Origin: an uncultured Verrucomicrobiota bacterium
GTDB taxonomy: Bacteria; Verrucomicrobiota; Verrucomicrobiia; Limisphaerales; UBA9464
Length of the DNA: 61,772 nucleotides
Direction: 5' to 3'
Assembly (NCBI GenBank): GCA_903880005.1
Contig: CAIRNV010000305.1
Location: 1-61,772, forward strand
A program made the position numbers and the translations under genes. Positions 4,650 through 61,772 of this stretch are shown here, piece by piece; the first letter of the stretch is position 1; each line of letters opens with the position of its first letter. Under the pieces are notes generated by a model. The model was given only the letters and a program-made list of their open reading frames with translations. It made no database searches and had not been told where the DNA came from.

Positions 4650-5151
4650 GCCGTGAAGGCCTAGATTGCGAGACACGGGCCGCGCCGGGCAAACCCTTTT
4701 TGGGGCGTTGGGTGCTCGTCGCCCCAGCCATGCCCCGCGCCGGACCCTTGCCTCGCGGCATCAGGCGAAACCCCATGGGAAGAAGGTCCTGCACCGGAAC
4801 GGATCGCTCGATGCCGTCGATGTGGACCACGGCGTCGGGCGCGAGCTCAAGCATCCATTGACGGCATGCGCCGCAGGGGGAACGACCCTCGGGCCCGAGG
4901 CCGGCATGGGCGTCGAGGCATGAGACCGCGACCGCAAGGATGCGCCGTGCGCCGGCCGTGATCGCCGCCGCCAATGCGGCCCGCTCCGCGCACAACGTGA
5001 GACCGTAGCTTGCGTTCTCCACGTTGCAGCCGGGGAACATTCGGCCGTCGTGGGCGAGCACCACCGCGCCCACCCGGAATTGGGAGTAGGGTGCGTGCGC
5101 AGGGACGGCGGCGGCGCGCGCGGCCGCAAGGAGCGCGTCGCGGGACGGCAT
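4636..5151 (-). CDS. cdd: Cytidine deaminase
   Basis: 171 residues. It converts cytidine and deoxycytidine to uridines in pyrimidine salvage. Zinc and catalytic motifs are clear: GCNVENASYG, then TLCAERAAL (zinc Cys54 and general acid/base Glu56), then SPCGACRQ (zinc Cys93 and Cys96). The family domain ends near residue 129 (VQDLLPMGF). The remaining 42 residues are Arg/Gly/Pro-rich, and the stop codon lies 14 bases inside tRNA-Ser. The tail may therefore be a by-product of a lost upstream stop. The start ATG 5151 gives the normal N-terminus. It follows the thioredoxin-like gene by 14 bases, so the two and the tRNA are probably one transcript. Confidence 0.93.
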
Positions 5152-5165
5152 GGACGCCTGGCCGG

Positions 5166-8375: not shown

Positions 8376-9382
8376 TCGAGGGAGGAGACCAGCGCCCTGA
8401 GGTTGCGGCGCATGCCATCCTCGTAGAAGGCCGCGCCGGGCTTGCCGGTCTCAAGAACGTCCAGCTCGGCGAACTTCACGGACAAGTCCTTGGTGAGCTG
8501 GCGGACAAGGCGGGGGTTGAACTGGGGCTCGGAAAAGATGACGCGAACGCCCTTGCTGCGGATCGCGGCGGAGAGGCGAGCCAGGTCCTTGGGGGAAGGT
8601 TCCACGGCGGGGGCCTCCTCGACGACGCCAACAAGGTCAAGGTCGTAACGGCGGCAGAGGTAGGGAAAGGCGTCGTGAAAGGTGACAATCGGCTTGCGGG
8701 CATGGGGCTGGAGCGCGGACGCCAGCTCGGCATGGAGGGCATGGAGGCGCTCGGCATAGGCCTTGCCGCGCGCGGCGTAGGCTTCCTTGTGTTCGGGGTC
8801 GGCGGCGGAGAGGGCGGCCACGATGTTGCTGACGGCGTGGCGGGCAAAGATGGGGTCGAGCCAGAGGTGAGGGTTGGGCGCCTCGCCGGCCGCGTCATGG
8901 TCGTGGTCGTGGTGATGGTGGCCGGAGCCGGACTTGGGGTCGGATACGTCGAGCTCGGGGAGGTGATAGATCAACCCGGCCTTGGGGAAGCCATCGGAGA
9001 TCCGGACGACCTTGGAGGCGGCATCGCGGGCGTTGTTGCGGATGGCCTTGTCGAGCCAGGACTCGATGCCGAGGCCGTTGGCAAGGATGAGGTTGGCCTT
9101 GCGGATGCGTTGGATGTCGCGGGGCTTGAGGTGGAAGTCGTGGGGGCCCACGTCGCCGGGGAGGAGCAATTCAACATCGGCGTCGGGTCCGGCGACGTTG
9201 AGGGTCCAGGAGTGAATGGGGGCGAAGGTGGCGAGGACGGCGGGGCGCGGGGCGGCGAGGGCGCGGGGATGGCCTAGGACGAGGGAGAGCGCGAGCGCGA
9301 GGAGGAGCAGGAAGGGCGAGGGGAGGAAGCGGAGGGAGCGGAGGAAGTGCAGGGGGAGGGTGCGTGGGCGAGGGGAGGGCAT
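8372..9382 (-). CDS. znuA: Zinc ABC transporter, substrate-binding protein ZnuA
   Basis: 336 residues, cluster A-I binding protein. The N-terminus has a long hydrophobic signal segment (FLLLLALALSLVLG) followed by AAPRPAVLATFAPIHSW. Metal ligands expected from the family are visible: GPHDFH (His81), NPHLWLDP (His172) and VTFHDAFPYL, plus an acidic residue near EPQFNP. A histidine/aspartate loop (GHHHHDHDHD, about residues 154-163) is the mark of zinc-specific ZnuA and not of manganese proteins. I used ATG 9382 since it starts the signal peptide; a further in-frame ATG at 9466 would lie in the terminator region. First gene of the znuACB-zur operon. Confidence 0.93.
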   Translation of the reverse strand: MPSPRPRTLPLHFLRSLRFLPSPFLLLLALALSLVLGHPRALAAPRPAVLATFAPIHSWTLNVAGPDADVELLLPGDVGPHDFHLKPRDIQRIRKANLILANGLGIESWLDKAIRNNARDAASKVVRISDGFPKAGLIYHLPELDVSDPKSGSGHHHHDHDHDAAGEAPNPHLWLDPIFARHAVSNIVAALSAADPEHKEAYAARGKAYAERLHALHAELASALQPHARKPIVTFHDAFPYLCRRYDLDLVGVVEEAPAVEPSPKDLARLSAAIRSKGVRVIFSEPQFNPRLVRQLTKDLSVKFAELDVLETGKPGAAFYEDGMRRNLRALVSSLE

Positions 9383-9395
9383 GGAAGCTGGGGGA

Positions 9396-9412
9396 TGGAT
9401 TTGCAAATGGAT
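9396..9412 (-). promoter_or_regulatory. Candidate Zur operator upstream of znuA
   Basis: The plus-strand sequence TGGATTTGCAAATGGAT holds the perfect 10-bp palindrome ATTTGCAAAT at 9399-9408. It lies 14 bases upstream of the znuA ATG, where promoter -10 elements or the leader should be. It matches at 14 of 17 positions a perfect-arm dyad (10650-10666) found upstream of the DksA-like/rpmG/rpsR unit. Shared sites next to zur suggest a Zur box; no consensus for this phylum was available to test it. Confidence 0.5.
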
Positions 9413-9429
9413 TGCATCTTCGGGGACCA

Positions 9430-9459
9430 CAACAAACCGCCGCCCGTGGAGGGCGGCGG
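9430..9459 (-). terminator. Intrinsic terminator after rpsR
   Basis: On the minus strand a 9-bp perfect GC stem (gggcggcgg at 9451-9459 pairing with ccgccgccc at 9437-9445, 5-base loop) is followed by TTTGTTGT. It lies 15 bases after the rpsR stop and separates that unit from znuA. Confidence 0.8.
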
Positions 9460-9474
9460 CATGCATGGCCCGCG

Positions 9475-9723
9475 TTACTTGACCAAGAGCATCTGCCGGG
9501 CGCGCTTGATCGCGGTCGAGAGCCGCCGCTGGTACTGGGCAGGCAGGCCGGTGTACTTCCGCGGCAGCAGGCGCCCGTTCTCGGTCACGAACTGGCGAAG
9601 CAAGGCCGTGTTCTTGAAATCGATGGTGTCGATCGTGAAATCAACCTTCGGCTTCGGCCGCGGTGTCCGCGGGGTGTTGCTGCGACGCTTCTTCTTGTCG
9701 TCGGTGCTGGTCTTGCGGGGCAT
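9475..9723 (-). CDS. rpsR: 30S ribosomal protein bS18, cysteine-free
   Basis: 82 residues. After a basic N-terminus, the family core is present: IDFKNTALLRQFVTENGRLL, then PRKYTGLPAQYQRRL and STAIKRARQMLL, which bind 16S rRNA next to bS6. There is no cysteine in the protein, so it is the zinc-independent form; zinc-binding bS18 variants carry a CxxC near the N-terminus. It starts 3 bases after the rpmG stop and is followed by a terminator. In several other bacteria, cysteine-free rpmG and rpsR paralogues form Zur-controlled sets. Whether this is the only rpsR of the genome cannot be seen here. Confidence 0.93.
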   Translation of the reverse strand: MPRKTSTDDKKKRRSNTPRTPRPKPKVDFTIDTIDFKNTALLRQFVTENGRLLPRKYTGLPAQYQRRLSTAIKRARQMLLVK

Positions 9724-9726
9724 GGC

Positions 9727-9894
9727 TTACTTGATTTCGCGGTGGAGGGTGTGGCGGCGGAGGAAGGGATTGAACTTCTTCTTTTCAACCTTCTCCGTCT
9801 GGAGCTTCTTGTTGCGAGTGGTCTGGTAGCGGGAGGGCGGCTTGCCCTCCTTGCGGGCCTCGGTGCACTCGATGGTGACGATCTCTCGGGGCAT
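9727..9894 (-). CDS. rpmG: 50S ribosomal protein bL33, C-minus type
   Basis: 55 residues. The sequence starts [20 protein letters not shown], then [20 protein letters not shown] and ends [15 protein letters not shown], clearly bL33. Zinc-binding bL33 has two CxxC pairs; here only one cysteine (residue 10) remains, so this is the zinc-free form. It starts 12 bases after the DksA-like stop and ends 3 bases before the rpsR start, so the three genes form one unit. The adjacent zinc importer and regulator suggest a zinc-sparing role, though in some lineages the C-minus form is the only copy. Confidence 0.92.
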
Positions 9895-59886: not shown

Positions 59887-61554
59887 TCATGATCCGCCTG
59901 TAGAACGGCGATTGTTTGTAGCCGTCCGGCGGAACCGTTGATTCCCGGCTCTCGGCCGGGTACGGGTGTGCCGATTCGTTGCGCCGGATGGACCGGGGCG
60001 GCAGCCGACGGCTTCCCCGGGTGGGCTGACGCCCGGATCAGTCCGGCGGGACCGCAGCCCCGGCGTTCTGGGCCCGGGCGTCTCGCCAACCGCGGGCGTC
60101 AGATCCCAGATGTCCTTCCGAGGATGGCGGCCGAGTCGAGGGATGATGTCACAGAGGTATCCGTAGGGTTCCAAGGCCAGGCGACGATAGCTCCCCAGCA
60201 GGGTGAGGAGGTTCGCGGCTCGCTCGCCCCCGACCTCCTGCCCCACGTGCAGCCAGTTGCGCCGCCCCATCACCACGCTCCGCAGCGCGTGCTCGATTGA
60301 GTTGTTGTCCAGCTCCGCCTCCGGCACCTCAAGGTACCGCACCATCGCCGGCCACTGGCCCTCGGCGTAGGACATCGCCTTCGCAAACGGTGTCTTGGGT
60401 GGCCTCAGTTTGGCGAACAGCTTCAGCAGCTCCCCGAGATTCTCCATCACCGGCCGGGATTCCTCCTGCCGCCCTCGCAACACTCCGCTCCGGTCCAGCT
60501 TCTCCTCCTTGGCCCTGCGCTCGACCCGGTAGAGCTGCTGGATCAAGGCCAGCAACTGGTCGCATGCCACCGGCGCATCCTCGCGAGCCTCGAAGATCTT
60601 CCTCCGGATGTGCGCCATGCAGGCGATGTGCTCCAGGCTCAGGTGCTCGAGCACCGGTCCATAGGAGCTGCCCCCGTCGGCCTGGATGTAACGGGCGTGT
60701 CCCCCCTTCAGCCATGGCTTCGGGCCGTGGTGCGACTTGTTCGTCCGGAAGTCGAACACTACCTCCGCCCACGGCAACCCGTAGGCCCACAGCCGCGCCT
60801 TGTGCATCTGCCCGTCGCGCAACTGCATCCGCACCGGTGTCTCGTCCGACTGCACGCAGTCCCGTCGGAGGATGTGCTCCCGGATGGCCCGCACCACCGG
60901 GGCCACCTGGTCCGAACACCACCCGGTCCAGTCGCACAGGGTCTGCCGCCTGAGCGGTATCCCCACCCGCTCGAAGGCCTGTTGCTGGCGGTAGAGCGGC
61001 TTGTGCTCCGCATACTTCTGCACCACCACGTCCGCCACCACCGTGATGTCCGCCTTCAGCCCGTTGTCCGGCCCCTCCGGCATCACCACGCCGTCGTGGC
61101 ATCGTTGGCAGACGCACTTGGGGTACACGTGGTTATGCACCACGTACTTCACCGGCAGCTTGTGGAGCGTCTCCCGGATGTTCTCGCCGATCTTCACCAG
61201 GGGCAGATGATCCGGTCAATGCGGGCAGACGCTCTGGGTGGGATCGATCGGGTGCTCCACCGGGCCCGCGTCAGGTGCGCCGGAAGCGGGCCGCGTCCGC
61301 GGGGGCGGGCCTTCCCCCTTTCCTTTCCCGGGTCCTTTTGCCTCGGCTCGGGCCGCTCCTCCTCGGCCTCGGCGGGCGGTTCGTCCGGGCGCTTGGACTG
61401 GGCCACCGCCTCGGCGGCTTCTCGCGCGTGCTGGGCGATGCGGGCTTCCATCTCCTCCGCGCCGACCTTCTCGGAACGAGATCCTAAGAGGCAGGGCTCG
61501 CCTCAAGGACTCCAGTTCCTCCGGGCCCAAGTCGCCGTCGGTCGTCGGGCTCAT
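59887..61554 (-). pseudogene. tnpC: IS66-family transposase TnpC, broken
   Basis: The catalytic part is well kept: DWTGWCSDQVAPVVRAIREH, QSDETPVRM (Asp), YIQADGGSSYGP (Asp), CMAHIRRKIFEA, and NNSIEHALRSVVMGRRNWL (Glu) make a DDE transposase. The 5-prime third is damaged. From ATG 61554 (MSPTTDGDLGPEELESLRRA) the reading shifts to another frame at LGSRSEKVGAEEM, near 61490. It shifts back near 61262, before VEHPIDPTQSVCPH. It then meets a TGA at 61216-61218 in place of the second cysteine codon of the CPHC zinc motif, after which homology continues as PDHLPLVKIGENI. A GTG at 61197 could still give a 436-residue product. The C-terminal 80 residues past WDLTPA do not match the family. Confidence 0.82.
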
Positions 61555-61772
61555 GAACGCAGCCTTTCCCGGAACGCCCGGTGCAACGGGTACAGGTACA
61601 CCGCCTTCACCGGCACCTTCATGGTCCCGTGTCGGTCTCCCCGGCTGCGTCCCGCCGTCAGGCCCACCTCCGCCCAGTTGCTCGCGGCATAGCACGTGCC
61701 CTCGAAGCGGCTCCGGTCCACGAAGGTCTCCACCACCTCGATCCCGTGCCCGTACTTGGCCTTCCAGTCCGA
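61551..61772 (-). CDS. DUF4338 (DruA-like) protein, C-terminal part
   Basis: 73 codons are visible, open to the right edge. The reading SDWKAKYGHGIEVVETFVDR, SRFEGTCYAASNWAEVGLTA, GRSRGDRHGTMKVPVKAVYL and YPLHRAFRERLRS is the conserved end of DUF4338 proteins (ETFVD, GTCYxAxNW, GxTxGR, KxVYLYPL). DUF4338 is the domain of DruA in the Druantia anti-phage system; similar proteins also occur alone. Its stop overlaps the tnpC start in ATGA, so here it belongs with a transposase unit and not with druBCDE, none of which are seen. Function unknown. Confidence 0.8.
   Translation of the reverse strand, partial: SDWKAKYGHGIEVVETFVDRSRFEGTCYAASNWAEVGLTAGRSRGDRHGTMKVPVKAVYLYPLHRAFRERLRS

Follow-up and report, generated by a model that had tools for sequence, protein, structure and literature searches.

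Mom of phage Mu (PDB 8bv8, Pfam PF25680) acylates adenine at N6, and Mom domains are found fused to nucleases of the restriction fold in jumbo phages (PMC7824862). Druantia DruA, represented by the PADLOC models PDLC00001 and PDLC00002, belongs to Pfam family PF14236 (DUF4338), whose members are currently annotated as unknown or anti-phage proteins and whose domain has been called a GNAT domain in passing (PMC10853773). Elements of the IS66 family (tnpA/tnpB/tnpC) encode TnpB and TnpC, have terminal inverted repeats (TIRs) of the GTAA/GTGT type and are flanked by 8-bp target duplications. The TnpB/IscB proteins of IS200/IS605 and IS607 are an RNA-guided nuclease accessory family that is common to unrelated transposase families.

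The stretch of 61,772 nucleotides analysed here (the window) comprises an entire contig (G000:C305) from an uncultured Verrucomicrobiota bacterium, at the right end of which the 3′ part of a DUF4338 gene is followed by an IS66 transposase gene. As with Mom, the DUF4338 protein is predicted to have a GNAT fold that matches over the whole domain, with aligned H, Y, S, D and Y residues, and is carried by a mobile element that uses a DDE transposase; it differs from Mom in its extra N-terminal three-helix domain, in adjoining or being fused to the transposase, in a sequence identity of only ∼16–18% and in an activity that is predicted. Its coupling to a DNA-cutting enzyme recalls the Mom–nuclease fusions, with a DDE transposase as the partner. 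The RDxxIGW region is common to these proteins and Druantia DruA, whereas DruA has DruE nearby and no Mom match, and the proteins borne on insertion sequences (IS) lack DruE and keep Mom-like motifs. TnpB, TnpC, TIRs and target duplications are like those of IS66, and the departure from the usual layout is the additional gene between tnpB and tnpC. The likeness to TnpB/IscB, as an accessory family found across unrelated transposases, is one of role, the DUF4338 protein being a predicted acyltransferase. Within the open literature, a scope that leaves aside ISfinder and subscription papers, we found no earlier report of a link between DUF4338 and transposases; of the three papers there that mention DUF4338, none makes this connection.

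The right end of the contig

The following features were delineated:

61551–61772, minus strand: DUF4338/DruA-like, Mom-like gene, C-terminal 73 codons and stop, cut at the contig end (Pfam PF14236)
61551–61554, minus strand: ATGA overlap of the DUF4338 stop and the tnpC start, read directly from the sequence
60038–61554, minus strand: tnpC, IS66 DDE transposase, decayed (PF03050 match, DNA alignment to the relative L067, and frames; 3′ limit approximate, borrowed from the relative)
59918–59937, plus strand: outer terminal inverted repeat, GTAGCCGTCCGGCGGAACCG, at the end beyond tnpC (homology to L067 up to exactly 59918)

Because the window is the whole contig, the upstream part of its DUF4338 gene cannot be read. 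The fragment (61554–61772, minus strand, 73 aa) matches profile positions 164–224 of PF14236 with E 1.3e-5 and 24.9 bits, a score barely below the cut-off of 27, as expected of a truncated sequence, and shares 88% identity with the DUF4338 protein of L015, L039 and L067. The first-pass annotation had read a DruA-like DUF4338 gene and an IS66-type transposase gene as sharing the bases ATGA. The overlap is confirmed on the minus strand, where TGA at 61553–61551 closes the DUF4338 frame and ATG at 61554–61552 starts tnpC. Both family assignments are likewise upheld by Pfam, the stretch 59890–61197 (minus strand) matching DDE_Tnp_IS66 (PF03050) with E 1.9e-68; the correction is that the tnpC of the window is a decayed copy. 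Alignment to the nearest relative, L067 (the same as L039; 81–85% DNA identity), shows that ∼160 bp are gone near the 5′ end and that the gene is frame-shifted, and an in-frame TGA lies at 61216–61218. In L067/L039 both DUF4338 and tnpC are intact and likewise overlap by ATGA, and TnpB is encoded upstream (L067, 5575–5892); the corresponding part of the window is beyond the contig.

The terminal repeat at 59918 (GTAGCCGTCCGGCGG) is common to the window and L067, and the element in L039 ends in GTAGCCGTCCGGCGGAGCCG and GTAACCGTCCGGCGGAGCCG. Judged by the gene parts and this repeat, what the window contains is therefore the 3′ portion of a decayed IS66 element with one of its termini; with one element end visible, a target duplication cannot be read. 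The bases directly outside the TIR are similar in the window (ATTGTTT, 59911–59917) and in L067 (ATTGTCT, ∼5146–5153), which may reflect chance, a longer repeat or a target preference.

DUF4338 within transposon ends and beside transposases

DUF4338 matches and their neighbours were inspected in 58 related genomes; of the 11 full-length homologues sampled first, 10 have an ATGA shared by the DUF4338 stop and the following start codon. When public genomes were scanned by DUF4338 alignment or motif alone, 80 loci were recovered, mostly from metagenome assemblies whose contigs often stop within elements. The next gene encodes a DDE transposase in 71 of the 74 loci that extend at least 250 bp past DUF4338, with the ATGA overlap in 39 of these 71; TnpB is encoded just upstream in 46 of the 80. 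The classic IS66 layout here is tnpB–DUF4338–tnpC, the gene for the DDE transposase following directly 3′ of DUF4338. The three exceptions are a probable IS66 tnpC remnant (L083), a contig-edge fragment (L129) and a locus with the IS66 gene upstream, overlapping too (L133). A second, phylum-wide sample of 288 genomes, searched by the Pfam model alone, gave 28 new loci, and in 21 of these the DUF4338 frame contains or adjoins a transposase. The pair, which the first-pass annotation had seen in one genome, thus extends over at least 17 named phyla. Among IS66 matches in the related genomes, 11 of 52 (about a fifth, fragments included) have DUF4338 adjacent, and since many IS66 elements do without the gene it is dispensable for IS66 transposition in general. 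A tblastn search of phage records found nothing matching the IS-borne protein, and plasmid records gave only two matches, both from Thiodictyon.

Some loci depart from this arrangement. In two betaproteobacterial loci (L133:239–2907 and L136:1157–3723) the order is reversed, IS66 tnpC preceding DUF4338 with a 4-base overlap kept, and their DUF4338 genes fall on the tree near those of the Thiodictyon plasmid and the Tn5 fusions. Desulfocapsa carries two DUF4338 genes ∼2 kb apart (L083:5846–6724 and 8929–9828), the first of them followed by the probable tnpC remnant. A GNAT-only gene without a transposase domain (L166:1474–2181) is closest on the tree to an ISAs1 fusion, and its opposite-strand neighbour resembles a REP-associated Y1 transposase.

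Inspection of element ends places DUF4338 inside the transposon. The element in L040 (3333 bp) has TIRs beginning GTAAGCGGTAA and the 8-bp target duplication GCTCCACC on either side, and that in L041 (3439 bp) has TIRs matching at 20 of 20 positions (GTGTCCCTTCGGCAAGCGTG) and the duplication GCTTCATC. An automatic search recovered TIRs with 8/8 duplications in L076 (Chloroflexota), L079, L089 (Elusimicrobiota), L110, L117 and L120, and with a 7/8 duplication in L116, compared with 0 of 340 flank-shuffled controls; a further hit, L098, was an artefact of N runs and was left out of the count. Target duplications were sought and not found in L039, L042, L051, L106, L107 and L121, an absence that decay or recombination may explain. 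In one genome, an element present at four different sites (L117, L118, L120 and L121) has DUF4338 and transposase in common end to end among its copies, as do three copies in the isolate Desulfoferrobacter suflitae DRH4 (L105, L106 and L107). In a second IS66 branch, with DUF6444, elements from several phyla have the TIR GTAACT(A/G/T)(C/T)TCAGG and DUF4338 as their first gene, and a 26-bp TIR encloses the DUF4338–transposase pair of an ISL3 element in Sporotomaculum (L081). The earlier proposal, in which DruA-like proteins belong firmly to a mobile element and perhaps serve as a DNA-handling factor, is partly supported and has withstood the refuting conditions set for it: shared inverted repeats, looked for around the pair, enclose DUF4338 in several elements with 8-bp duplications, and the pair is found well beyond a single genome.

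The association proved wider than the first-pass annotation supposed, several unrelated DDE families carrying DUF4338. As a separate gene it lies directly 5′ of IS66 (two branches), ISKra4-type, ISL3, IS4 and Tn5-type (L078) transposase genes and of a DDE_Tnp_1 gene that we take to be ISNCY-like. It is also fused N-terminally, in one frame, to ISAs1, Tn5-type and IS701 transposases, the ISAs1 and IS701 fusions being without the N-terminal domain of the DUF4338 protein. The genome of the window alone has DUF4338 with IS66 (the window), with an ISKra4-type transposase (C384) and in an ISAs1 fusion (C115). On a tree of the GNAT domain the ISAs1 fusions cluster, the Tn5 fusions cluster and the separate genes are mixed, and by a quick method the transposase type must have changed at least 17 times. 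In L064 and L062 the element end and DUF4338 have 84% DNA identity that stops ∼43 bp before the DUF4338 stop, beyond which the transposases belong to distant IS66 lineages; this break is a direct case of module exchange. The DUF4338 module is thus exchanged between transposase families, and with dN/dS values of 0.10–0.25 (ten pairs) the gene is under purifying selection. DUF4338 belongs to the transposon; it is tied to the gene for the transposase, and selection conserves it.

Several GNAT–ISAs1 fusions are split into two overlapping frames (L146, L147, L149, L151, L154, L160 and L161, and L008 in the genome of the window). A run of T (e.g., CCCCCCTTTTTTG or GCTTTTTTTCCC) follows a conserved VKDNQ-like motif in 7 of 7 frame overlaps examined, making these runs candidate sites of programmed frameshifting or transcriptional slippage.

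A predicted GNAT domain resembling Mom

An AlphaFold2 model built from the L067 protein and 51 relatives (a 52-member set) has a mean pLDDT of 92.5 and consists of three N-terminal helices followed by a GNAT domain. A Foldseek search with the model returned GNAT enzymes, and the top row of a VIA-align comparison is the S124A mutant of phage Mu Mom (8bv8; Z 14.1, 169 residues, 16% identity). RimI, NatF and further GNATs fall within 1–2 Z of Mom, so that fold comparison alone fails to separate Mom from them. It is the sequence matches and the profile comparison that single out Mom. Of the 52 members, 44 match the PHROG 'Mom-like DNA modification protein' (best 1e-7) and 26 match Pfam Mom at E up to 0.1 (best 1e-6; a few reach the 27.1-bit cut-off), L067, the nearest relative of the window, giving no Pfam Mom match at E 0.1. 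Alignment by hhalign to a profile of 12 Mom proteins covers the whole domain (residues 105–291) with Prob 96.4 and E 1.1e-9. When solved structures were searched by sequence, with the protein alignment as query, nothing was significant, and among these structures Mom surfaced only by fold comparison.

Mom residues H48, Y49, S114, D139 and Y149 align with H133, Y134, S209, D/E239 and Y248 of the DUF4338 protein. Across the 52 diverse members H133, Y134, R195, S209 and Y248 are invariant and position 239 is Asp or Glu. Mom R101 falls on R195 by MAFFT and on R189 by hhalign, and secondary structure favours R195. We take H48/Y49, S114, D139 and Y149 to be the Mom active site, in keeping with the title of entry 8bv8, in which S124A is inactive; judging from the protein lengths, S114 would be S124 in the 241-aa numbering if the solved protein begins ten residues earlier. 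Structure prediction supports a GNAT fold with the active site of Mom for DUF4338. The N-terminal domain modelled alone (three helices, pLDDT 82) had no significant PDB match (best E 0.69), and a DNA-binding role for it is consequently a guess.

Among BFVD entries, the model matches phage proteins labelled homing endonuclease or endonuclease-like that have a similar GNAT domain (e.g., I7KLM9 and A0A4Y5JUX8), which suggests that Mom-type domains are paired with DNA-cutting enzymes more widely.

The name DruA is misleading for the IS-borne protein. The PADLOC Druantia DruA models match the IS-borne proteins with best E values of 1e-4 to 0.03 over ∼50 aa, and L067 itself matches PDLC00002 at E 0.033 over 50 aa and PDLC00001 not at all, compared with E 1e-190 for a true DruA (L021). 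True Druantia proteins (L021 and L168–L171) are longer, at ∼400–700 aa against ∼290 aa, and control Druantia loci on plasmids adjoin the DEAD/DEAH helicase DruE; between the ends of the IS elements there is no DruE, the neighbours being tnpB and the transposase gene. A Druantia identity was rejected on these grounds. In profile comparisons with three to five Druantia sequences, only 90 columns are common to the two groups and Druantia DruA has no match to Mom. PF14236 joins two different things, the IS-borne proteins and Druantia DruA.

A possible role in transposition

We lean towards a reading in which the DUF4338 protein is a transposase partner in the IS66 element and a Mom-like, acyl-CoA-dependent modifier of DNA bases, probably marking transposon or target DNA. 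The transposase would bring the protein to transposon DNA, where the predicted enzyme would transfer an acyl group to a DNA base, adenine N6 if it acts like Mom. A mark on the element could keep host restriction and nucleases away from an excised or copied intermediate, following the Mu precedent, or it could distinguish the element's own DNA from target DNA, a purpose proposed because the enzyme to which the protein is tightly coupled cuts and joins DNA; either purpose is a guess.

GNAT folds act on many substrates, and the domain might instead regulate transposition by acylating the transposase or a host protein. Protein acylation is a common GNAT activity, RimI and NatF fit the model almost as closely as Mom does, and fusion and translational coupling place the domain beside the transposase; we nonetheless find it unlikely, given that the best structural match, PHROG and the profile comparison all single out Mom, whose active-site residues are retained. 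Slightly less likely still is a GNAT fold serving only as a non-catalytic domain for DNA binding or target choice. N-terminal fusion to DDE transposases and the GNAT-like domains of the phage proteins labelled homing endonucleases would suit such a function, which would not by itself require five residues to be invariant in 52 members. Transposons often carry defence genes, and the Pfam family is named after Druantia, so that the gene could be Druantia-like cargo that benefits the host and has no part in transposition. A position that always adjoins the transposase gene, often as a fusion, the lack of DruE or any other defence gene and the poor match to Druantia models make this quite improbable. 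A chance neighbourhood, or insertion of an IS66 element beside DUF4338, could be imagined from the single, decayed copy cut off by the end of this contig; it is ruled out for practical purposes by the TIRs and target duplications that enclose the gene in many elements and by the recurrence of the order across phyla.

We put forward more tentatively, and with considerable doubt, a general class of bacterial transposons in which unrelated DDE transposases share an exchangeable Mom-like, DNA-modifying partner and marking is part of the transposition cycle. Such marking would carry the logic of restriction–modification over to transposition, as self-protection or as discrimination of self from target, and Druantia DruA would later have been recruited from this class. 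It is rare for one partner protein to serve unrelated DDE transposases, which suggests a requirement that they all share. Because a cultured host, D. suflitae DRH4, has several identical copies, the modification can be tested there, and so can its role.

If the transposon is the main home of DUF4338, annotation and the defence-system counts that use the Pfam DruA model need correction, and the known accessory functions of insertion sequences would gain a GNAT-family DNA modification. A GNAT–ISAs1 fusion on the Thiodictyon plasmid pTs417 (L217:2471–3805) is annotated just as 'ISAs1 family transposase', a label under which the DUF4338 part is hidden.
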